This document shows positions 7,948-59,474 of a stretch of 64,000 nt of DNA, in pieces. This DNA is from Candidatus Omnitrophota bacterium (GTDB lineage: Bacteria; Omnitrophota; Gorgyraeia; Aquiviventales; Aquiviventaceae). The stretch is from assembly GCA_030697665.1 (NCBI GenBank), contig JAUYPJ010000098.1, forward strand, positions 1 through 64,000, read 5' to 3'. Every line of letters begins with the position of its first letter. The stretch's first letter is position 1. The notes under the pieces were generated by a model. The model saw only the letters and a program-made list of their open reading frames with translations, ran no database searches and was not told the DNA's origin. Made by a program: the position numbers and the translations under genes.

Positions 7948-8080
7948 CGGCTGAATCATCGGTGCTGCCTGAATTTGGGACTACACAGATTTGAAACCCA
8001 GATTTCGCAGATCATGATCTGCGAAATCTGCCTTATGAATCTGCGAAATCACCCAACTTAAGGCACGGCTGAATCATCGG
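7948..8080. repeat. Intergenic repeat cluster with 32-bp perfect palindrome
   Basis: The gap between the GT39 and UXS genes (7836-8073) holds a perfect 32-bp palindrome at 7999-8030 (16-bp arms CAGATTTCGCAGATCA and complement), a third half copy at 8038-8051, and a 15-base direct repeat CGGCTGAATCATCGG at 7948-7962 and 8066-8080. The second direct copy contains the stop codon of the UXS gene. Confidence 0.85.
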
Positions 8081-17535: not shown

Positions 17536-17560
17536 CAGCGCCAGTCGTCCCTCGCCGAAA

Positions 17561-17633
17561 GTCCATAGTCGATAGTCGATAGTCCATAGAAGAGCTGACC
17601 ACTATGGACTATGGACTGTGGACTATGGACTGC
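17561..17633. repeat. 7-mer tandem tract (CATAGTC type), two opposed arms
   Basis: GTCCATAGTCGATAGTCGATAGTCCATAG on one side and CTATGGACTATGGACTGTGG on the other are complementary heptamer arrays around a short loop. They fill the whole gap between rfbA and the rfbC-like gene. Confidence 0.9.
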
Positions 17634-17637
17634 CTGA

Positions 17638-18099
17638 TCACCCATCGCGCCGGTTCCAGTCATACGGGATCTCGCTGTGGTGAGGATCCAGCCGGTACTC
17701 ATCGGGCCGCTTGTGATGGTAGGGTTCCGTGGGGATGTTGAGGACGATCGCCTCAGGCTCGCTCAGCCCCTTGAACCCATGGTGGACCATCGCCGGGATC
17801 TGAACCAGCAGGGGCTGGTGGGTCCCGATGAACCATTCGTTCACAAGCCCTTTCGTCGGCGAACCCTTCCGCCCGTCGTAGGCGACGAGCTTGATCATCC
17901 CGCTGACGCACACGAAGTTGTCAATCTGCTTCTTGTGGTAGTGCCAGCCCTTGACGACCCCGACGTTGACGGTGGTGCAGTAGACCTGGCCGAACTTCAG
18001 GAAGAGCGCGTCATCCTTTCGCAGGATCTCGAAGAGCCGCCCCCGCTCATCCGGGATCACGGTGAGCGGTTTGGTCCGCACGCCCTCGATGAGTTTCAT
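17638..18099 (-). CDS. dTDP-4-dehydrorhamnose 3,5-epimerase-like protein
   Basis: 153-residue single-domain cupin. VIPDERGRLFEILRKDD, VGVVKGWHYHKKQIDNFVCVSG and IPAMVHHGFKGLSEPEAIVLNIPTEPY follow the RmlC pattern: the general-base His lies in GWHYHK and the PxxxxHGF strand is present. It is shorter than classical RmlC (about 180) and matches the RfbC-like/WxcM group often found next to rhamnose genes. It overlaps ugd's stop as ATGA. Confidence 0.85.
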   Translation of the reverse strand: MKLIEGVRTKPLTVIPDERGRLFEILRKDDALFLKFGQVYCTTVNVGVVKGWHYHKKQIDNFVCVSGMIKLVAYDGRKGSPTKGLVNEWFIGTHQPLLVQIPAMVHHGFKGLSEPEAIVLNIPTEPYHHKRPDEYRLDPHHSEIPYDWNRRDG

Positions 18100-19391
18100 C
18101 CCCCCCTCCCGACGCCGACGTAGCGAAACCCAAGCGCGCGGAGCGGCTCTGGATCGTAGAGGTTGCGCCCGTCCACGATCAGGGGCTGACGGAGCAGCCG
18201 CTTGAGCCGCTTGAAGTCCAGCTCCTTAAATTCGTTCCACTCGGTGAGGATCACCAAACAGTCCGCCCCACGCGCCGCTTCATACGGGTCTTGACACAGC
18301 ATCAGCTTGGGGAAGAGCCGCTTCGCTTCGGTCGTCACCTGGGGATCGAACGCCTTGAGACGGGCCCCTTCCCCCTGGAGGTACTCGATGACGTCAATCG
18401 AGGGGGCGTAGCGCATGTCATCGGTGTTGGGCTTGAACGCCAACCCCAGCACCCCGATCGTCTTGCCCTTCAGCACCCAGAGGGCCCGCTGGATCTTGAG
18501 CGCGAAGCTGCGCTTCTGCTGCTCGTTGATGCTCCGCACCGCCTTGAGCAATTCGAAGTCGTAGCCCAGCTGCTCGGAGATGTTGATGAAGGCTTCAAGG
18601 TCCTTCGGGAAACAGTAGCCGCCGAAGCCGGCTCCGGCGTCTAGAAACGACCTGCCGATGCGCCGATCCAACCCGATCCCTTCCGCCACCTGCTGGACAT
18701 CGGCCCCGCACCGCTCACAGAGCTGCGCGACCGCGTTGATGAAGGAAATCTTCATGGCCAGAAACGAGTTGGCCGCATGCTTGATCAGCTCGGCGCTCTT
18801 GATATCCGTGACCACGATGGGAACCCCCAGGGGCTTATAGAGCGCGCACAGCAGCTCCTTGGCGCGCTTGCTCTCAACCCCCAGGACCACCCGGTCGGGT
18901 TTCATGAAGTCCTCGATCGCGGTTCCCTCCCGCAGGAACTCCGGGTTGGACGCGACATCGAACGGCTGCTTCCGCTTCAGATAGGTGCGGATCGTGTGGG
19001 CCACCCACTGCCCCGTCTGCACGGGGACGGTGGACTTCTCCACGATCAACCGGTAGCCGCTCAGGTGCCGGGCGATGGCGCGGGCCACACGCTCCACGTA
19101 CGCCAGATCCGCTTCCCCGGTCGCTTTCTGCGGCGTCCCGACCGCAATGAACAGAATCGTACACGTCGCCACGCCTTCCTTGATCGAAGTCGTGAACCTC
19201 AGCCGTCGCTCCCGGACGCCCCGCTCGACCAACTCCTCAAGACCGGGTTCGTAGTACGGGAGGATGCCTCGCTTCAGATTGGCGATGCGCTTGGCGTCAT
19301 TGTCGACCATCATGACGGAGTGGCCCAAGTCGGCAAAACAGGCGCCGGTCACGAGCCCTACGTGTCCGGCCCCCACAACGCTCAACTCCAT
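18096..19391 (-). CDS. ugd: UDP-glucose 6-dehydrogenase
   Basis: 431 residues. VVGAGHVGLVTGACFADLGH is the NAD motif, VEKSTVPVQTG, NPEFLREGTAIEDFMKPDR and GAGFGGYCFPKD (catalytic cysteine) are the family blocks. It oxidises UDP-glucose to UDP-glucuronate, the substrate of the UXS encoded at 8074. Unlike the second dehydrogenase at 12158 it has no intein at the equivalent cysteine. A large palindromic element lies right before the start. Confidence 0.94.
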   Translation of the reverse strand: MELSVVGAGHVGLVTGACFADLGHSVMMVDNDAKRIANLKRGILPYYEPGLEELVERGVRERRLRFTTSIKEGVATCTILFIAVGTPQKATGEADLAYVERVARAIARHLSGYRLIVEKSTVPVQTGQWVAHTIRTYLKRKQPFDVASNPEFLREGTAIEDFMKPDRVVLGVESKRAKELLCALYKPLGVPIVVTDIKSAELIKHAANSFLAMKISFINAVAQLCERCGADVQQVAEGIGLDRRIGRSFLDAGAGFGGYCFPKDLEAFINISEQLGYDFELLKAVRSINEQQKRSFALKIQRALWVLKGKTIGVLGLAFKPNTDDMRYAPSIDVIEYLQGEGARLKAFDPQVTTEAKRLFPKLMLCQDPYEAARGADCLVILTEWNEFKELDFKRLKRLLRQPLIVDGRNLYDPEPLRALGFRYVGVGRGG

Positions 19392-19396
19392 GCTTC

Positions 19397-19550
19397 ACCC
19401 CGTACCACGGGAAGCCCCGCCTGCCCCGAACGATCACGGTCGTACGGAGCCTGTGAAGGCGTGCCCCGTTCCAACTCGTTGGAACGGGGCGGGCACGGCT
19501 GCTCGTCCCGTTCGATGAGCCATCGAACGGGATAAACCGTGGTACGGGGT
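19397..19550. repeat. Large palindromic element (family C) with three stems
   Basis: A 14-bp perfect terminal inverted repeat, ACCCCGTACCACGG (19397-19410) and its complement (19537-19550), encloses two further perfect hairpins: CCCCGTTCCAA/TTGGAACGGGG (19464-19489) and TCCCGTTCGATG/CATCGAACGGGA (19506-19532). It fills most of the ugd-lptD gap. The layout is that of a REP/MITE-like non-coding element or a strong structured RNA. Only one copy is in this window. Confidence 0.85.
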
Positions 19551-19591
19551 TCACGCCGTGTGGCCGTCTTTCGCATTGGGATTATACCCCA

Positions 19592-22500
19592 TTACTTTCC
19601 GACGGGCGAGAACGGACTGCTCTGGGAGCCCATCTTCGGCTCGTGGTAGGACTCCCCCATTTCGATCGGCAGCCCCGGATAGGCCTTGAGGGTGAGCGTG
19701 AAGAACAGTTCTTCCCCGAACTCCCGGTCGACCCTGTAGACCACCTCAGCGAGCCAGTCGTGGAGATCTCGACGAAGGACATACTGGCGCTCGCGCGCGT
19801 TGTAGAATCGCTTGCTCCCCCCCGCCACCTCCTTCCAGGTGAAGCGGTGGAACGTCCCGATCTGCCACTTCTCGCTCAGACGCCGGTCAAACTGCACGAC
19901 GGCCTCCGTCTTGTCGTTAGAGGAGTATCGGTGCCCGAACCCGAGGTACCACAGGCCCAGAGGCATGAGGAGCTCCGTCCCACCCCGCGGTCCTGGCTGA
20001 TACCGCTCCACCCCCTCGGGGAGGGAGGTCGTCCTCAGGTCTGGCGCGTTGGCCGCGGAGGCCTGTGTATCCTGCCCGCCCCGTGCCCTGCCCCCCGCCA
20101 CAATGACATCGAGGTTCCACGTGGTCAAGCGCCGATCCCGTGAGCCCTTGAGGAAATGACTGGGGTACGACCAGTTGGATTCGACGCGCAGCCATGGCCA
20201 TGGCAGGAGCTCCGCGTCAAATGACCAGTCGTTCAGACGTCCGCCCTGCTTGTTGTGGTTCCCCCGAAAGGTATACGGCACCGAAGCCGTCAGGCGGGCG
20301 AAGTCGAGACTCTCCAAACGCCCGGCCGGCTGCTTGACCTGCCCCTGCCCTCCCAAGGGAACCCGTGACCGCTTCGTCTGCAGTTTGTTTTCGAGGCCGA
20401 AGGTCAGGCGGTTCGTCGAACCGTCGGCGGCGGGGAACGTCAGCAGATCATTGGGCGCCGTCGGCCGGCGGACGTAGCTGTAGGCCAGGGTGGGGGTAAT
20501 CACATGCCGCAGCCAATTGAGGTCCAGGCCCCATGCGTTGGTGCTGAAGGGGAAGGTCCGGAACAGCTTGAGGCTCGCATCCGCGCCCATCGAAAACTGC
20601 CCGCTGAGGAGATCCCGTTTGCCTTGAGGCCGCTCGCTGCCCCCTTGCTTGTCCTTGGTGTAGTAGGTCTGGCGAACTCCGACCCGCGGGGTCACTTCGA
20701 TCGGGCGGAACAGGCTCATGGCGTACTTGAACTGCTCGAACCAATCGACCCGCACCACGTCGGTATCGTTGTCAGAATGGGCGCGTTTGGTCTCGAAGTT
20801 GGCGACGCCGACCTTCGACTCGGAGAACACCGGCGAGTCGCCGATGGGTCTGGAGCCGGTCTCCCACGTCAACTGGGGCAATTGCTCATCCACCGTATCG
20901 AAGCGATTCATCCGTTTGTTCAGGAGCGCACTGAAGGAGTAGTCGGGGGTGCTCGTCACCCATGAGACGGAGCCGGTCGTCCCCACATCCTCCCTCACGA
21001 ACTCTTCGCGGAACAAGAAATCTTTCCGAAAGTCGACGTCGCTGAACTCCTGGATGTCGGTCACGACGCTCGTATCGGGCAGCGGGGTGAACTGCTGACG
21101 CCACAGCAATCGATAGCGGTTGATGTTCGCCCCTTTCGGCGGCTCCTCCGATTCAGGCCGGCGGATGTATCGTTCCTCGTTGTAGTAGGCTTTCAGCAGC
21201 CCTTTGCCAAGCGTCTCGGTCTTAAACCGATGGTCGATGCCCGTCGCCCAGCCGAAGGCCCGTCGCCAGTCCAGGCGCAACGTCCCGTCATGGCCTTCCG
21301 GCCATTCGTACCGATAGCCCATGAGGGCAAACTCCTCCCAGGGCTTCTTCTTTCCCGGGATGATGAAGAAGGGGCTTTGGCGATTCGCGACGGACAGGGC
21401 GGGAAGATAGATCACAGGCAACTGCTCAACGACCAAGGTGGGATGACGAAGCCGAGCGATCTCATCCTGGGCCAACACGATGGCCCGGCGCCCGGAGAAC
21501 GTAAAATGGGCCGGTTCCAGGTTGCACGAAGTGAGGTAGCCCGGCGTCACCTGGTAGACCCCCTCGGCGAGATGCTCGATCGACCGCCCATGCATATGCC
21601 AGATGGGTGAGGAGACCGTCCCCTGGAGGAAGCGGCCCTTCTTGGTCCGCAGGTTGTAGTGGATCATCTCGCCTCGAAAGAGTTGCACGCCATCCTCCAG
21701 GCGCACGTGGCCTTCGGCGTAGACGTCGTGGGTGTCGGTCAAGACAGTCAGTTGGTCGCAAGTGAGAAAGGCATTCTCATACGCCAGCTCCACATCGCCC
21801 TGCGCCACCGCGAGATGCCGATCCGGCTCGACACGCATCTGACGAGCGTGAATCTCCATCCCCCCCGGCGGAGGAGCCGGTCGGCCCACAAGGCTGGGGC
21901 TCACCACACCCTCCCGCGCAGGCACCAACTCCCCTGGCAGAGCCTCAGGTGGAGACGGCCCTCCACCGAGGGGCATCCCCGCCTCGCCGACGCCTGGGCG
22001 TGTCGTCCACAATGGGATCATCGTCAACGTCTTCGTTTCGACCGGAGGGGCCGGCGGTGGCCCCAGCGGACTGACCGCGCGGTGTGGCTCGCGAATCGAT
22101 GGGGGTTGCGGCGGCCTCGCCGCGCGCGCGAGCCCTTCGGCGCGCGCCCGCGTGGCCGCCTCCGCTCGCTCCTGACGCCGCTGAGCCTGCGCAACCGACT
22201 CAGCCTCTTTCTTGAGCCGCGCAAGCGTTCGATCCCACTGGGTCTGCTCGTCGCGAAGCTGCCGTTCCATCGCCTTATGGATGGCGGCGGTTCGTCGCTG
22301 CGCGTGCGCTTCCTGCTCAAGTCGCGCCGTCAGGGAGGCCAACTCCGAGGGGCTCAGCGGGCGAAACGACTCAGGCGAGGCTAATCGCGCCTGGCACAGC
22401 TCACGGTAGAGCGGCACCCATGGATCGTCCGGCACAAGCGTTGAGAGATGGTCGAGCGGCTCCAGCGCCTGGCGGTACGCGCCCTGCCGGATGAGGCTCT

Positions 22501-22633
22501 TCGCCTGCTGCCAATACGCCTCAGGGCTTGCCCCATTCTGGACCTGTTGGGGTGGGCCCGCCTGGGCCCAGACGGCGCCGCCCAGCCCCAACACGCAGCA
22601 GCCAACCAGCACGCCTCGACACACCACGTTCAC
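19592..22633 (-). CDS. lptD: LPS-assembly outer membrane protein LptD with long N-terminal extension
   Basis: 1013 residues. A signal peptide (about 1-24, ending AVWAQA) is followed by a TPR-like helical part (about 35-75), a charged coiled coil (about 100-165) and a Pro-rich linker. From about 255 an OstA/LptA-type beta domain begins (MEIHARQMRVEPDRHLAVAQGDVELAYEN), then the LptD beta-barrel (about 430 to the end). It would insert LPS in the outer leaflet. Typical LptD lacks the first 240 residues. lptF and lptG lie at 30.8-33 kb. Confidence 0.85.
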   Translation of the reverse strand: MNVVCRGVLVGCCVLGLGGAVWAQAGPPQQVQNGASPEAYWQQAKSLIRQGAYRQALEPLDHLSTLVPDDPWVPLYRELCQARLASPESFRPLSPSELASLTARLEQEAHAQRRTAAIHKAMERQLRDEQTQWDRTLARLKKEAESVAQAQRRQERAEAATRARAEGLARAARPPQPPSIREPHRAVSPLGPPPAPPVETKTLTMIPLWTTRPGVGEAGMPLGGGPSPPEALPGELVPAREGVVSPSLVGRPAPPPGGMEIHARQMRVEPDRHLAVAQGDVELAYENAFLTCDQLTVLTDTHDVYAEGHVRLEDGVQLFRGEMIHYNLRTKKGRFLQGTVSSPIWHMHGRSIEHLAEGVYQVTPGYLTSCNLEPAHFTFSGRRAIVLAQDEIARLRHPTLVVEQLPVIYLPALSVANRQSPFFIIPGKKKPWEEFALMGYRYEWPEGHDGTLRLDWRRAFGWATGIDHRFKTETLGKGLLKAYYNEERYIRRPESEEPPKGANINRYRLLWRQQFTPLPDTSVVTDIQEFSDVDFRKDFLFREEFVREDVGTTGSVSWVTSTPDYSFSALLNKRMNRFDTVDEQLPQLTWETGSRPIGDSPVFSESKVGVANFETKRAHSDNDTDVVRVDWFEQFKYAMSLFRPIEVTPRVGVRQTYYTKDKQGGSERPQGKRDLLSGQFSMGADASLKLFRTFPFSTNAWGLDLNWLRHVITPTLAYSYVRRPTAPNDLLTFPAADGSTNRLTFGLENKLQTKRSRVPLGGQGQVKQPAGRLESLDFARLTASVPYTFRGNHNKQGGRLNDWSFDAELLPWPWLRVESNWSYPSHFLKGSRDRRLTTWNLDVIVAGGRARGGQDTQASAANAPDLRTTSLPEGVERYQPGPRGGTELLMPLGLWYLGFGHRYSSNDKTEAVVQFDRRLSEKWQIGTFHRFTWKEVAGGSKRFYNARERQYVLRRDLHDWLAEVVYRVDREFGEELFFTLTLKAYPGLPIEMGESYHEPKMGSQSSPFSPVGK

Positions 22634-25980: not shown

Positions 25981-26013
25981 TAGTCCATAGTCCATAGACC
26001 ATAGTCCATAGTC
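25981..26013. repeat. 7-mer tandem tract (CATAGTC type), left arm
   Basis: Units of CATAGTC/CATAGAC directly upstream of the diguanylate cyclase ribosome-binding site; pairs with the arm at 26067. Confidence 0.88.
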
Positions 26014-26066
26014 AAAACTAACAGACAGAAATCACGGTGAGGTGTTCTCGCGTTCATGTTTCTTTA

Positions 26067-26098
26067 GCTATGGACCATCGACTATCGACTATGGACTG
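26067..26098. repeat. 7-mer tandem tract (ATGGACT type), right arm
   Basis: CTATGGACCATCGACTATCG is complementary to the arm at 25981; about 53 bases of loop separate them. The tract ends at the stop codon of the next cyclase. Confidence 0.88.
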
Positions 26099-28685: not shown

Positions 28686-28760
28686 AGTCATCAGTCGGCA
28701 GTCATCAGTAGTCAGTTGCCTGTTCACTGACTACTGACTACTGCCTACTGCCTACTGACC
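28686..28760. repeat. 7-mer tandem tract (GTCAGTA type), two opposed arms
   Basis: GTCATCAGTCGGCAGTCATCAG and the opposite arm CTGACTACTGACTACTGCC. It supplies the TAG stop codon of accD. Confidence 0.88.
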
Positions 28761-29609
28761 ACTTCTGGTCTCGCTGAGATAGTTGATGAACCTGGCCACC
28801 GTCGCCTTGAGCTGTCGACGATGGACGATGAGGTCGATGAGGCCGTGGCTGAGGAGAAACTCGGCGCGCTGAAACCCTTCAGGGAGCTTCTGGCGAATCG
28901 TCTGCTCGATGACCCGCGGGCCCGTAAATCCAATGAGCGCCTTGGGCTCCGCCAGGATCAGATCCCCGAGCGAGGCGAAGCTGGCCAAGACCCCCGCCAT
29001 CGTCGGGTGCGTCAGGATGGAGATGAACAGGCCGCCCTGGGCGTCGAACCGCATCAGGGCGCTCGCCGTCTTGGCCATCTGCATCAGGCTCAGCATGCCC
29101 TCCTGCATTCGGGCCCCCCCGCCCGAGCCGGAGACGATCACGAGGGGCAGATGAGCGGCGGTGGCTCGCTCAATGGCCCGTGTCAGCCGCTCCCCCACCA
29201 CGGATCCCATCGAGCCCATCATGAAGCGCGAGTCGGTGATCCCGAGGACCACCTCGCGGCCCTCGAGCCGTCCCCGGCCGGTGAGACACGCATCCGTCAT
29301 GCCGCAGGCCCGCTGCTCCTCGACGACTTTCTGCGCATAGGGCGTCGGGAGGCCGAACCCCAGGGGATCCACTGGGAAGAGATCCGCATCCCACTCTTCA
29401 AACGTCCCCTCGTCGATCAGCACGCGGGCTCGCTGGGGAGCCGATAAGGGAAGATGAGAGTCGCACTTCGGGCAGACACGGAGATTCTCTTCAAGCGCCT
29501 TGTTGTAAATGAGCTGGCCGCAGGAGTCGCACTTGGTCCAAAGCCCTGAAGGGATCTCCTGTTTGGATCTGCGAGCAAACGTCGGCCGTCGTCGGTTGAA
29601 CAGCTTCAT
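28752..29609 (-). CDS. accD: Acetyl-CoA carboxylase carboxyltransferase subunit beta
   Basis: 285 residues. A zinc ribbon at the N-terminus (C27, C30, C46, C49) marks AccD. The crotonase-like core has GxGxxGGRxTEG-type features: SRFMMGSMGSVVGERLTRAIE, VSGSGGGARMQEG and HPTMAGVLASFASLGD. With AccA (not in this window) it transfers carboxyl from biotin to acetyl-CoA for malonyl-CoA. The stop codon comes from the 7-mer tract. Confidence 0.94.
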   Translation of the reverse strand: MKLFNRRRPTFARRSKQEIPSGLWTKCDSCGQLIYNKALEENLRVCPKCDSHLPLSAPQRARVLIDEGTFEEWDADLFPVDPLGFGLPTPYAQKVVEEQRACGMTDACLTGRGRLEGREVVLGITDSRFMMGSMGSVVGERLTRAIERATAAHLPLVIVSGSGGGARMQEGMLSLMQMAKTASALMRFDAQGGLFISILTHPTMAGVLASFASLGDLILAEPKALIGFTGPRVIEQTIRQKLPEGFQRAEFLLSHGLIDLIVHRRQLKATVARFINYLSETRSGQ

Positions 29610-38721: not shown

Positions 38722-40833
38722 TTAGAGCGCCTCGACCGTCCACTGGAGACGGCCCCTCCACCGCGGCATCCTGTCAGGCTCCGCAAGCCCTCCAGGATCT
38801 GCGTGACCGTGATCGAGGATCCAGAAGCACATCAACGACAGCCCCTGATACGTCCGCTCCAGACCGCCTTCCGATTCGGAGACCGTCTCGATGGGGCAGT
38901 ACATCAGCTCAGCCGGCGGATCGATCAGGAGGGTCAGCGAGACGCCGGCCGCCGGCTCTCTGATGACGGCCTCGCGCGCGTGGGGCTGCTGTTGCGGCGT
39001 CCCCAGGTAGCGCTCATCGCGCAAGGCGAGATTGCACTCGAGTCCAATCACCGGCACCCCGCGTCCCTCCAGCTCATAGTCACATTCGAGGGTGGGCTGA
39101 TCGACGCTGATCCGAAAGCGCTTGCGGATGATCCGCCCGTCAACCTGCCGGCTCAGCATGACCCTGAAGCCCCTCGAGCGGACGTCCTCCCCGCCTCCCC
39201 GGCGCCGCTGGTACGGTCCGCTGGACCACAACCGGCGCTCCCCCCAACTCGCGCAGGCCACCTCCTGGAGCGTCGGCATGCTCTGCAGGGCGTAATCAAG
39301 AAACAGGCTGCGGCGATGGTCATCGTAAACGAGCCGGGAGCCGAGGCCGGCCTCTTTGGCCCCCAGGATGTCATGGATGCTGCTGGGGACGTCTCCGCCG
39401 CCGGCCGCCACGTTCAGGCGTGCCGCCTTGAGCGTCTCGTGATAGGGCTCCTCGCGACGGCTCAGGGTATCCAAGAGGTTGAGCTGAGGACCGGAGAGGC
39501 TCCACTCCGTCACCGCGCCGCCCTCATCCGGATCGATGAGGAGACGCATCGCCGCCGTCTTCACCTGCACCTCGTCGCGACCATCGCCATCCGCATCCAC
39601 GCTGGTCATCGACGGACCCTGCCCCACGAGCTGGTCGGTGAGCTGTTCAGCGGCGATCAGATGGGCCTGGATGGCGCGTCGCAAATGGGAGAGGTAGAGC
39701 CCGCCGAACACCCCATGCCAGTACGCGCAGTTGCATTGGGCCATGTACAGATGTCGCCTGGCCAAACTCAAGGCTTGGTTGACAGTGAACCGTTTACCGT
39801 TTACAGGGACTTTCTTTTTCCGTTTCTCTTGTTGTGCTCTGACTGTCAACTGTTCACTGTTCACTGTACACTCGCACAAGCGTCGGCTGATGGAGAGCAT
39901 CTTCTGATACATGGCGTTCGCTTCAGGATACTTCGTGAAAAAGTTCCGAAATTGGCCGCCCGACCACTCCAGCATCTCGTCATAACTGCCGCAGGGGAGA
40001 TAGGCGCTCCCATCCGGAGCCGCCTGCCTGACGTACTCCTGAAAGGTAGTCGTCACAAGCCACTCCCGCTCCCGCTCCAGCGCCGAGAACCACTGCTCAA
40101 GCCACCCCTCGTCATAGACCCACTGGGAGGTCTTGGGCCACAACCCGAACTTCTCCCCATCATCGGCAAAGGTGATGGCCACCGGACGGTCTCGCCGAAG
40201 CCGCCTGAGGAACTCGATCGTCTGCTCCACCGGCTGAAACGGCAGCCAGTAGCGCAGCCGCTTGGATCCGGGGAAGAGGCGGATCGATGCGCCCGCGTAG
40301 TCCGTCGTATAGGAACCCAAGAGGTCCCAGAAGCCGTCCTCCTCGATCTGCAGCGTCCTCGGGAGCCACGGTCTGGCGGGGAAAAACTGGTTGGCGTCGA
40401 CCATCGTGTAGGCCATCCCGGCCTGCGCAAGGGTGGCGGGCACCTCGGGTTCCCACACCCGCTCGGTCAACCACAGCCCGGACGGGTTCACGCGAAACTG
40501 CGCGCGCAGCGCGGCGCGCATCAGCGCGATCTGCCCCTGGCGGTCCGCCTCGGGGATCAGCGGCAGGATCGGCTCATAGTAGCCGGACGCCAACAGCTCG
40601 ACCTGTCCGCGGCGGATGAGCGCGCGCACGCGACGCAGGAACGCGGGCTGATGTGTGATGAGCCAATCGAGCAGGCAGCCGCTGTAATGGAGCGCCAGGC
40701 GCACCCGGGGGTGTCGCTCCAACACCCGCAGGAAGGGATCGTACGCCTTCGCATACGCCTCCTCGAAGACAAACCCGAAGTTCCCGATTGGCTGATGGCA
40801 ATGGATCGCCATCAACAACGTCACGTCACTCAT
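38722..40833 (-). CDS. GH57 4-alpha-glucanotransferase/alpha-amylase-like enzyme with repeat insertion
   Basis: 703 residues. MAIHCHQPIGNFG is GH57 motif 1, GLWLTERVWEPE carries the nucleophile Glu124 (equivalent to E123 of the Thermococcus enzyme), and FADDGEKFG the acid/base Asp (224/225). The C-terminal two thirds match the DUF1925/DUF1926 domains of glucanotransferases. It would remodel alpha-1,4 glucan. ATG 40833 is preceded by AGGTGGTG, supplied by a palindromic element. Residues about 320-352 (TVNSEQLTVRAQQEKRKKK...) are encoded by two tandem-repeat arms and look like an insertion. Confidence 0.9.
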   Translation of the reverse strand: MSDVTLLMAIHCHQPIGNFGFVFEEAYAKAYDPFLRVLERHPRVRLALHYSGCLLDWLITHQPAFLRRVRALIRRGQVELLASGYYEPILPLIPEADRQGQIALMRAALRAQFRVNPSGLWLTERVWEPEVPATLAQAGMAYTMVDANQFFPARPWLPRTLQIEEDGFWDLLGSYTTDYAGASIRLFPGSKRLRYWLPFQPVEQTIEFLRRLRRDRPVAITFADDGEKFGLWPKTSQWVYDEGWLEQWFSALEREREWLVTTTFQEYVRQAAPDGSAYLPCGSYDEMLEWSGGQFRNFFTKYPEANAMYQKMLSISRRLCECTVNSEQLTVRAQQEKRKKKVPVNGKRFTVNQALSLARRHLYMAQCNCAYWHGVFGGLYLSHLRRAIQAHLIAAEQLTDQLVGQGPSMTSVDADGDGRDEVQVKTAAMRLLIDPDEGGAVTEWSLSGPQLNLLDTLSRREEPYHETLKAARLNVAAGGGDVPSSIHDILGAKEAGLGSRLVYDDHRRSLFLDYALQSMPTLQEVACASWGERRLWSSGPYQRRRGGGEDVRSRGFRVMLSRQVDGRIIRKRFRISVDQPTLECDYELEGRGVPVIGLECNLALRDERYLGTPQQQPHAREAVIREPAAGVSLTLLIDPPAELMYCPIETVSESEGGLERTYQGLSLMCFWILDHGHADPGGLAEPDRMPRWRGRLQWTVEAL
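39779..39873. repeat. 7-mer tandem tract inside the GH57 coding sequence
   Basis: TTGACAGTGAACCGTTTACC and GTCAACTGTTCACTGTTCAC are opposed heptamer arms around an A/T-richer loop. The insert keeps the frame and would add about 32 residues. Confidence 0.85.
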
Positions 40834-40975
40834 CCCACCACCTGGCTGCCTGCGCCTGCGGCGCAGACGCGGCGGGTGCTTCCACTGCCGTGACACGTCT
40901 CCCACCCGCCGCGATCGCGGCGCTGCAGTCGTTCGTTTCCGCGGCGTGCGCCGCGACAGCTAGGTGGTGGGATCA
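40831..40975. mobile_element. Palindromic element, family B, between yvcK and GH57
   Basis: Ends CATCCCACCACCTGGCTG and CAGCTAGGTGGTGGGATCA form the terminal inverted repeat; inside are TGCGCCTGCGGCGCAGA and GCGGCGTGCGCCGC stems. Read on the minus strand it starts with the TGA stop of yvcK and ends with AGGTGGTGGG-ATG, the ribosome-binding site and start of GH57. The copy at 55819 has the same placement. Confidence 0.88.
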
Positions 40976-44971: not shown

Positions 44972-44996
44972 GAGATGATTTACGGATTGAAAAAAC

Positions 44997-45058
44997 GATT
45001 ACGCAGATCAGGAGTCCTAGACCCAATCTGCGTAATCACCTTAGGAATCTGTGTAATC
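44997..45058. repeat. Inverted repeat tract (GATTACGCAGAT type)
   Basis: GATTACGCAGAT (44997-45008), ATCTGCGTAATC (45026-45037) and a third arm AATCTGTGTAATC (45046-45058) between aspA and korB. The same family is seen at 7999 and 53095. Confidence 0.85.
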
Positions 45059-49180: not shown

Positions 49181-49259
49181 CGTGACTGGGTGACTGAGTT
49201 ACTGCGTGACTGCGTCACTGCCACTCAGTCACGCAGTCACCCAGTGACACAGTCACTGC
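49181..49259. repeat. 8-mer tandem tract (GTGACTGn type), two opposed arms
   Basis: GTGACTGGGTGACTGAGTTAC and opposed CAGTCACGCAGTCACCCAGTG with a 9-base loop region. It fills the korB-Rieske gap. The same unit returns at 56586. Confidence 0.9.
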
Positions 49260-53094: not shown

Positions 53095-53203
53095 TTGGGG
53101 ATTACACAGATTCTACAAACCGATTACACCGATTGGCTCCGACGAAAATCCGACGAAAACATCTGTGGAATCGATTTGGCTAATCTGTGTAATCCTACCC
53201 CAA
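53095..53203. repeat. Inverted repeat tract (ATTACACAGATT type)
   Basis: TTGGGGATTACACAGATT (53095-53112) pairs with AATCTGTGTAATCCTACCCC at the other end; inside are GATTACACCGATT and two units of GACGAAAATCC. It fills the gap between aldolase and the small gene downstream. Confidence 0.88.
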
Positions 53204-54912: not shown

Positions 54913-55821
54913 TCACGTGTCACCCAGAAGTGTTTCCGCTGCCTGTTCGACCTGGCGGGTGAGCCACTGGACGATGCTGGGATGCGGCAGGAGCGCCTCC
55001 CCGCGATAGGCGTAGGCCAGGCCCGTGAGCCGCTGGGGAATCTTGGCCTCGATCCCTCCCCTGGCGATGAGCAAGGGGACGACGAGGACTCGACCCCGCC
55101 GGCTGCACTCCTGGACGATTGAGCGCATCCGCGCAATCGCCGCCTCCTGCACCGGTGTCGGAGCGTCGTCGCGCATCGTCACCGGAATCACCGCCTGGAA
55201 TCCCCCCCGCGCCCTGACCGCAGCCGCGAGGCGCTCCATCATCTCATGCCATCGGAGATCATCGTCATCACTCGTCGGGCCGTGCGCCACCAGCACGACG
55301 GCCTCCTCCTGGGGCGAGCGGCTCAACCGCTGCGCCCGCTCCACGAGCACCTCCGCCACCGCCGGATCATCCTCCAGCGGACCCGTCATGAGGATGGGTG
55401 TGCGCAGCGTGAGCGGGCGCACCATCGCCTCCCACGGCCCGTGCTCACGCAGCCCGAAGAGGTACTGGAACTGCCGCATCACCTCAGAGGAAGAGGAGAT
55501 CAGCAGCGGAACCACCACGAGCCGCCGCGCCCCGCGCCGCTCCAGCCGTTCGACGGCTTGCTGAAGTCGATCGACTTCGTGGGGGTGCATCCCCATCCCA
55601 AACACCACCTCAGTGGGGACGGACAACTTCGCCTGGGCCACCGTCTGGCGGACCGCCTGGTTCCACCGTCGAGAGCCGCCGTGGGCCAGCACCACGACCC
55701 CGATTTCGCGCTCGGCATCCGAGGCAGGGTGAAGGGTAAAGGGTGACGGGTGAAGGGTACAGCTCAGCGTTGCGCACAATGCCCCGACCCCGATACCCGC
55801 GCGCCACCAGCCACACTTCAT
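54913..55821 (-). CDS. CbiX-like chelatase, probably exported lipoprotein
   Basis: 302 residues. The core is two CbiX-like halves: VVVLAHGGSRRWNQAV and VVLVAHGPTSDDDDLRWHEMMERLA, each with the metal-binding HG motif, as in sirohydrochlorin cobalto/ferrochelatases. Unusually, an N-terminal hydrophobic segment (about 8-20) ends in LSC, a possible lipobox, so the protein may be exported. The following residues TLHPSPFTLHPAS are encoded by a 7-mer tract. The start ATG is supplied by the palindromic element upstream. No other cobalamin or siroheme gene is in the window. Confidence 0.75.
   Translation of the reverse strand: MKCGWWRAGIGVGALCATLSCTLHPSPFTLHPASDAEREIGVVVLAHGGSRRWNQAVRQTVAQAKLSVPTEVVFGMGMHPHEVDRLQQAVERLERRGARRLVVVPLLISSSSEVMRQFQYLFGLREHGPWEAMVRPLTLRTPILMTGPLEDDPAVAEVLVERAQRLSRSPQEEAVVLVAHGPTSDDDDLRWHEMMERLAAAVRARGGFQAVIPVTMRDDAPTPVQEAAIARMRSIVQECSRRGRVLVVPLLIARGGIEAKIPQRLTGLAYAYRGEALLPHPSIVQWLTRQVEQAAETLLGDT
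55726..55760. repeat. 7-mer tandem tract (GGGTGAA type) in the cbiX-like signal region
   Basis: Units GGGTGAA, GGGTAAA, GGGTGAC, GGGTGAA, GGGTACA. It encodes the linker right after the presumed lipobox. Confidence 0.8.
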
Positions 55822-55958
55822 CCCACCACCTGGCTGCCTGCGCCTGTGGCGCAGACGCGGTGGCTTCGTGTCGTGAACTGCTCCACACCCGCCGCGTCCG
55901 CGGCGCTCAATGTGGTCGTTTCCGCGGCGTGCGCCGCGACAGCGAGGTGGTGGGATCA
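55819..55958. mobile_element. Palindromic element, family B, between folE and the cbiX-like gene
   Basis: Ends CATCCCACCACCTGGCTG and CAGCGAGGTGGTGGGATCA; inside TGCGCCTGTGGCGCAGACGC and GCGGCGTGCGCCGC, close to the copy at 40831. On the minus strand it starts with the folE TGA stop and ends with AGGTGGTGGG-ATG, the start of the next gene. Confidence 0.88.
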
Positions 55959-56573
55959 TGCGAGGGAGGAGCGGATCAACGTCAAAAATTCCGTGCGGGT
56001 TTTGTCGCTGGAACGAAAGACCCCCAGCATGGAGCTGGTCACCGCCCGAGCGTTCTGCTTCTGCACCCCCCGCATCATCATGCACAGGTGGCTTGCCTCG
56101 ACGACGCACGCCACCCCGATGGGACGGACGTGCTCGTTGATCGCCTCGGCGATCTGCGTCGTGAGTCGCTCCTGCACCTGCAGGCGGTGGGCGAAGACAT
56201 CCACAAGCCTCGGGATCTTGCTCAGGCCGAGGATTTTTTTGTCCGGCACGTACGCGATGTGGCACTTCCCAAAAAAGGGCAAGCAATGGTGTTCGCACAA
56301 GCTGTAGAAATCAATATCCTTCACGATGACCATTTCATCATGTTTCACTTGGGCGAAGGCGCGTTTGAGAATCTTCGCCGGGTCCTGCCGGTAGCCGGAG
56401 GTCAGAAACTGCAAGGCCTTCTTCACCCGCAGCGGGGTCCGTCGGAGCCCCTCACGGTTGGGGTCTTCTCCCATCAGCCGCAGGAGCAGCCGCACCGCAG
56501 ACTCCCACTCTTTCGCCGCGGGGACTTCCAGTGCCTGGCGTAATTGTATCAACTCATCGTTGGTGTTCGACAT
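55956..56573 (-). CDS. folE: GTP cyclohydrolase I
   Basis: 205 residues. [23 protein letters not shown] (zinc-binding Cys and His) and [28 protein letters not shown] are the family blocks. It converts GTP to dihydroneopterin triphosphate for folate. ATG 56573 follows GAGGA with good spacing. The stop codon is part of the palindromic element. Confidence 0.95.
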
Positions 56574-56585
56574 ACTGTCCTCTTC

Positions 56586-56650
56586 GTGACTGGGTGACTG
56601 AGTTGGATGTTGCCGTAACCCAGTCACCCAGTGACCCAGTTACTCAGTCA
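56586..56650. repeat. 8-mer tandem tract (GTGACTGn type), two opposed arms
   Basis: GTGACTGGGTGACTGAGTTGG and opposed AACCCAGTCACCCAGTGACC. It contains the TAA stop codon of pepA and the space before folE. Confidence 0.88.
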
Positions 56651-59398: not shown

Positions 59399-59474
59399 TA
59401 TTGCGGATTGCGGATTGCGGATTGCGGATTGAAAAACCTCCAATTCGAAATCCGAAATTCGAAATCCGCAATCT
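59399..59474. repeat. 7-mer tandem tract (GGATTGC / CCGAAAT), two opposed arms
   Basis: Five units ATTGCGG (from 59400) face ATTCGAAATCCGAAATTCGA (to 59474). Same family as at 30688 and 38330. It fills the gap before apgM. Confidence 0.9.

Follow-up and report, generated by a model that had tools for sequence, protein, structure and literature searches.

Between ugd, a gene of the UDP-glucose/GDP-mannose dehydrogenase family (18096..19391, minus strand; Pfam PF03721/PF00984/PF03720), and the gene of an LptD-like outer-membrane protein (19592..22633, minus strand; Pfam LptD match of E=9.9e-5, which narrowly misses the curated cut-off), the 64,000-nucleotide stretch of Omnitrophota DNA analysed here (the window) contains a gap that, as reported in the preliminary description of this DNA, measures 200 bases from the ugd start codon at 19391 to the stop of the LptD-like open reading frame at 19592. 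Most of this gap is occupied by a palindromic element, which begins 2 bases 5' of the ugd ATG and is separated from the end of the LptD-like gene by 37 bases. The 14-bp perfect terminal inverted repeat described before was recovered exactly, with arms at 19397-19410 (ACCCCGTACCACGG) and 19537-19550 (CCGTGGTACGGGGT) that are 100% complementary over 14 nt. The two inner hairpins are indeed perfect, with stems of 13 bp (19463-19475/19478-19490) and 12 bp (19506-19517/19521-19532) in place of the 11-12 bp given earlier, and a fourth, weaker hairpin lies at 19424-19449. Folding of 19380-19570 as RNA gave -105.2 kcal/mol compared to -75.0 +/- 4.7 for shuffled sequences (z = -6.4; 0/200 as low). Membership of a known RNA family had been named in advance as the finding that would speak against the first interpretation; an Rfam search of 19200-19800 returned no match at E<=1.

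A repeated element in the source genome and beyond

The search for further copies of the ends that the preliminary description had suggested was productive: the 2.18-Mb source genome contains 12 exact occurrences of the end 14-mer, compared with a chance expectation of ~0.02 (base-counting estimate, 2 strands x 2.18 Mb / 4^14). Nearly all occurrences are paired at distances of 36 to 154 bp or have a partner with one mismatch. At least eight copies of an element of roughly 110 bp, too short for a transposase gene, share both or one of these ends (in the window, on contigs C16, C17, C39 and C49, twice on C70 and, with the right end only, on C4), and they adjoin different genes. Because the same element is found beside unrelated genes, both here and in many other genomes, the earlier suggestion of a structured leader of ugd is unsupported. 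In one of the C70 copies (G000:C70:7770-7890; L041:1271-1391), the interior is inverted relative to the TTCAC ends.

Alignment of eleven near-complete copies (109-115 bp) revealed a canonical form that reads, from left to right, TTCAC, CCCGTACCAC(GG), GGAAG, the hairpin CCCCGCC..GGCGGGG, AGGAAYG, CCCGAAGGG, GAAG, the hairpin CCACGGCTGT.AAGCCGTGG, TACGGGG and TTCAC; reduced to a scheme, CCCGTACCAC..(G)GAAG-hairpin..GAAG-hairpin..GTGGTACGGGG is bordered by TTCAC on either side. It contains three helices, P1 formed by the end spacers, P2 by the left and P3 by the right hairpin, in which 95% of cells are paired. Two-sided changes were found in 10/24 pairs compared with 4.5 +/- 1.5 after shuffling (0/500 shuffles as high), and sliding the partners against each other abolished the covariation signal. 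Each end thus carries a subterminal hairpin, P2 or P3, with compensatory changes. A covariance model built from this alignment (R1) matches the window copy over model positions 1-111 (E=1.7e-9). At E<=0.01, it returned 15 rows for the source genome. Two of them repeat listed copies on the opposite strand, and several of the weakest could be chance matches; the inverted C70 copy scored 60 bits on the minus and 29 on the plus strand.

Of the 384 Omnitrophota genomes sampled, at least 91 had R1 matches at E<=0.01, with ~4 expected by chance; the count is a lower bound because nine candidates only were scored per genome. Scanning public genomes with TTCACCCCGTACCACGG retrieved the same element from several Omnitrophota MAGs and a groundwater Nitrospirae MAG, and a TTTAC version from a Deltaproteobacteria MAG. 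Most matches of this exact 17-mer scan were chance matches in coding sequences, the real elements being those of Omnitrophota, Nitrospirae, the Deltaproteobacteria MAG and one unclassified bacterium. Four matches of the right-end 16-mer in viral contigs were likewise discarded as chance.

Copy number and arrangement vary among the carriers. Genome G333 has nine identical copies with differing flanks. Five near-identical, terminal-only copies of 58 bp in G206 (L215-L219) all lie in similar ATTACAC-repeat flanks and may thus have multiplied either along with the surrounding repeat as it was duplicated or through insertion time and again. Two copies in G334 (L205, L206) carry an extra insert with TCCTTCGACAAGCTCAGGA in the loop of the right-end hairpin. 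A copy in G068 (C104; L175:226-338) has inverted TTCAC borders, TTCACCCC...GGGGTGAAT, and its outer flanks, AGGGGACACAATACTTAA and TTAAGTATTGTGTCCCC, are also inverted repeats of each other.

Border words and hairpin feet change together

The border of the element is a fixed word, TTCAC or TTTAC in nearly all copies, and not a variable duplication. At the 5' foot of each hairpin lies a guide tetranucleotide complementary to the cleavage word, GAAG accompanying TTCAC and AAAG accompanying TTTAC. Among distinct elements, the third base of the left word (C_L) and the first base of the left guide (G_L) combined as C-G in 23, T-A in 35, C-A in 4 and T-G in 0 cases (Fisher 3e-13; 7e-6 with one element per genome and type), and the corresponding counts at the right end were C-G 19, T-A 14 and other 5 (Fisher 2e-7), leaving four exceptions on the left and five on the right. 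By eye, the rule extends to two further positions, with the terminal word TCCAC and the guide GGAG in L211/L231, and TTAA with AAAT in L210, L230, L211 and L231. It also holds within single elements whose ends are unlike, namely the nine G333 copies (left TTTAC/AAAG, right TTCAC/GAAG), L184, and L210/L230 (left TTTAA/AAAT, right TTCAC/GAAG), which rules out shared descent as its explanation. Removing the element from L055 with one TTCAC kept yields a perfect tandem TTCACGGTACAC in the flank, and this one inferred empty site would be consistent with retention of a single TTCAC.

In IS608, the hairpin foot acts as the guide: A+16 pairs with T-3 and A+17 with T-4, the target being TTAC and the guide AAAG (PMC5934647). 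The TTTAC elements described here carry the identical word and guide, TTAC and AAAG, and the family as a whole shares with IS608 and other IS200/IS605 elements the insertion 3' of a fixed word, the subterminal hairpins and a guide 5' of each hairpin that pairs with the cleavage site. It differs in containing neither tnpA nor tnpB, in having complementary end spacers, and in that the left and right border words are often alike.

Laboratory work has shown that IS608 can be retargeted through a changed guide. The family resembles a natural series of such retargeting events, with TTAC/AAAG, TCAC/GAAG and CCAC/GGAG changed jointly across the phylum, and with single elements in which both guide and border word differ from one end to the other.

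The window copy is composite

Comparison of its ends with those of other copies, together with the R1 match, places the whole window copy with both border words at 19394..19554 (161 bp; this and all following features on the plus strand). Following IS200/IS605 usage, the element itself comprises 19399-19554 and lies inserted 3' of the left TTCAC. That word (19394..19398), constant in relatives, is the putative left cleavage or target word C_L and remains in the flank; the putative right cleavage word C_R, also TTCAC and constant in relatives, forms the element end at 19550..19554. The arms of the terminal inverted repeat are the left and right spacers, which covary with each other across genomes. 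Next to the left spacer follows the putative left guide G_L, GAAG (19411..19414), assigned from the covariation of guide and cleavage site, 5' of the left-end hairpin.

Compared by eye with its relatives, the left-end subterminal palindrome, CCCCGCCTG...CCTGTGAAGGCG...GGG (19415..19493), corresponds to an uninterrupted palindrome elsewhere (e.g., GCCCCGCCTGTGAAGGCGGGG in L099) and has taken up two hairpins. The first insert, CCCCGAACGATCACGGTCGTACGGAG (19424..19449), is recognised from the fold and from the relatives as the weaker, imperfect hairpin. The second, TGCCCCGTTCCAACTCGTTGGAACGGGGC (19462..19490), contains the perfect 13-bp hairpin, and its core is confined, within the source genome, to three elements of this family. 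At the right end, remains of the subterminal palindrome, CACGGCTG...TAAACCGTGG (19494..19543; GAAGCCACGGCTGTCAAGCCGTGG in relatives), enclose in their loop a third insert, TCCCGTTCGATGAGCCATCGAACGGGA (19506..19532), with the perfect 12-bp hairpin. In a by-eye parse against the canonical form, this copy has neither the linker nor the right guide GAAG. Because hairpins have been inserted in both palindromes and the right guide has been lost, the window copy is probably an immobile fossil, a decayed and composite member of the family. Hairpins within hairpins also occur in copies of other genomes (L177, L185, L207, L214). By landing 2 bases before the start codon, the window copy would have replaced the upstream leader of ugd: GGGGTG just before the ATG comes from the element end, and GGGGTGAAGCATG, read on the ugd strand at this place, is element end plus border word. 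A different nested palindrome in G008 (C30; L046:1430-1620), AGTGCCGTTCCAACT...AGTTGGAACGGCACT, surrounds a GCCCCGTTCCAAC hairpin that is also present in the window copy.

Proposed transposition as single-stranded DNA and the search for an enzyme

We consider it highly likely that the feature in the window is a non-autonomous element of the IS200/IS605 type, here in a degraded copy, and that such elements move as single-stranded DNA. What can be read from the sequences themselves in support of this are the border pentanucleotides, the two subterminal hairpins, the covarying guides, the dispersed copies and the covarying spacers. An HUH/Y1 transposase (TnpA) supplied in trans would bind both hairpins on the top strand (here the plus strand), pairing of the guides with TTCAC would bring both borders into its active site, and the element would leave as a circle of single-stranded DNA and integrate anew 3' of a different TTCAC.

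An autonomous element with exactly these ends was not found, and a motif scan for the ends showed none that matched at any Y1 locus. At true IS200 TnpA genes, similarity to the model was partial at best, and one copy lay near a Y1 gene, that of G333, at a distance of 0.9 kb; this was the single strong match among 43 Y1 loci. The source genome has only a fragment of an IS200 TnpA, in which the first 40 positions of the profile are missing. After this fragment comes GAAG-CCGAGGCC TTTA GGCCTCGG-AGAATCATT, recognised by the model as a right end of the family's type. In G118, hairpins of the form CCCCGCCTG..GGCGGGG and a TTCAC flank an intact, full IS200 TnpA. Y1 genes were detected in 22/25 carrier genomes and are mostly RAYT-sized, with no Y1 match in three genomes that have the element (G261, G190, G173), and TnpB (PF07282) had no match in ten carrier genomes. 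Because no autonomous parent was found, TnpB is absent from those ten carriers and the Y1 proteins of carriers are mostly RAYT-sized, we can only infer that the mobilising enzyme is a Y1/HUH TnpA. The same absence of PF07282, together with the guide rule, which explains the hairpin feet, led us to drop an origin from the omegaRNA end of a TnpB element. A literature search on transposable elements or IS200 in Omnitrophota retrieved no relevant paper.

The many RAYT-sized Y1 genes of the carriers, and the related single-strand hairpin chemistry, would fit mobilisation of a REP/BIME-like element by TnpA_REP/RAYT, a REP-associated tyrosine transposase. REPs, however, measure 20-50 nt, have GTAG as a conserved motif and are cleaved at CT (PMC8266576), whereas the elements described here have ~110 nt, two unlike hairpins, fixed borders at both ends, and a foot that is GAAG, AAAG or GGAG instead of GTAG and covaries with the TTYAC border at either end. 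As strong model matches are near only one of the 43 Y1 loci and the RAYT of G008 is flanked by a different repeat, which also excluded this RAYT as the mobiliser, we regard such an origin as improbable. The G008 gene (C42; L108:1180-1960) is RAYT-like, has GGTACCAGGTACCTGGAGTACCTGGTACCG on both sides and is a candidate REPtron.

Terminal inverted repeats, a length of ~110 bp and dispersed copies without genes would equally suit a classical MITE of a DDE transposon, with the inverted repeats as transposase binding sites and TTCAC as a 5-bp target-site duplication. Such a duplication would vary from insertion to insertion, yet nearly all copies have TTCAC or TTTAC, the covariation of guide and border has no role in such a model, and the unlike words of the nine G333 copies, TTTAC on the left and TTCAC on the right, cannot be target duplicates, making a DDE origin very unlikely. 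Of the third REP/MITE class proposed in the preliminary description, what stands is a repeated, transposase-less mobile element; its type appears to be IS200/IS605, neither REP nor classical MITE. Despite a very stable fold, covarying helices and a position directly 5' of ugd, a structured RNA in its own right (ugd leader, riboswitch or terminator) can be given almost no credence in view of the Rfam result, the copies beside unrelated genes, the identical dispersed copies, and borders and guides that covary in the manner of a transposon. For annotation, the IS200/IS605-type family accounts for three-stem elements that could pass for RNA leaders.

Complementary end spacers

The spacer between the left word and its hairpin is complementary to that between the right hairpin and its word over 12-14 bp, and the two vary together (GTACC/GGTAC, GCACC/GGTGC, GCCCC/GGGGC, GCTCC/GGAGC, GTTAC/GTAAC and GTTAG/CTAAC). 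With one element per genome, positions 10-13 were Watson-Crick paired in 97/108 cells, with 2000 shuffles giving 53 on average and 70 at most. The model with which these elements had been found favours pairing at positions 4-11; positions 12-13, whose pairing with each other it does not reward, are therefore the cleaner evidence, and C-G, A-T and G-C pairs occur there.

Complementarity of the spacers allows the element ends to pair. Less firmly, the paired spacers would form a stem that overlaps the cleavage words and holds the ends together, locks them shut until TnpA opens them, or both. As the final two bases of the left word are part of this stem, competition with guide pairing is to be expected. 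IS200/IS605 elements and PATEs (palindrome-associated transposable elements) have been described without terminal inverted repeats (PMC7290912, PMC3119063), and complementary end spacers appear to be undescribed in this cited literature. We tentatively raise the possibility that the family forms a class of its own among single-strand transposable elements, distinguished by end-to-end pairing of the spacers that separate cleavage sites from hairpins. The resulting closing stem would compete with the pairing of guide and cleavage site, might thereby provide a built-in lock or a clamp for synapsis, and might enable phylum-wide spread of short, transposase-less units as natural drift takes their guides from one target word to another.

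Relation to PATEs, REPs and short mobile repeats

PATEs, known from Haloquadratum (PMC3119063) with one in Halanaerobium (PMC7290912), resemble the Omnitrophota elements in lacking coding capacity of transposase size, in their IS605-like subterminal palindromes, in a short constant border word without variable target duplication, and in the existence of shortened terminal-only versions (43 bp here, 52 bp in PATEs). They differ in host, which is here an uncultured bacterial phylum, Omnitrophota, and in that the end spacers here are complementary and covary; because inverted repeats break the published definition on this one point, we liken the element to a PATE without classing it as one. With REP/BIME elements and TnpA_REP, the family shares palindromes and the single-stranded-DNA chemistry of Y1 enzymes.

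The SMR-A short mobile repeats of Haloquadratum (PMC3119063) are likewise ~110 bp long and gene-less, with prominent terminal inverted repeats and no target duplication. SMR-A repeats enter the subterminal palindromes of PATEs in Haloquadratum (PMC3119063), to which the hairpin inserts in the palindromes of the window copy are similar, a likeness by description only, and the latter inserts measure only 26-29 bp. Complementary spacers suggest how gene-less 110-bp elements with inverted repeats and no target duplications, such as SMR-A, might move.

Other repeats in the window

A second family of ~140-155 bp, with terminal inverted repeats ATCCCACCACCTGGCTG...CAGCKAGGTGGTGGGAT, is present at 1727-1865, 40832-40973 and 55811-55965 of the window and could be the same kind of element. 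Imperfect palindromes were also observed at 7979-8050, 17547-17631, 25982-26097, 28686-28763, 44982-45052, 49182-49256, 53099-53195, 56586-56635 and 59406-59473. They are composed of short tandem words (AGTCCAT, GTGACTG, AGTCATC, GATTACACAGATT and GATTGCG), several of which thus occur in one genome.
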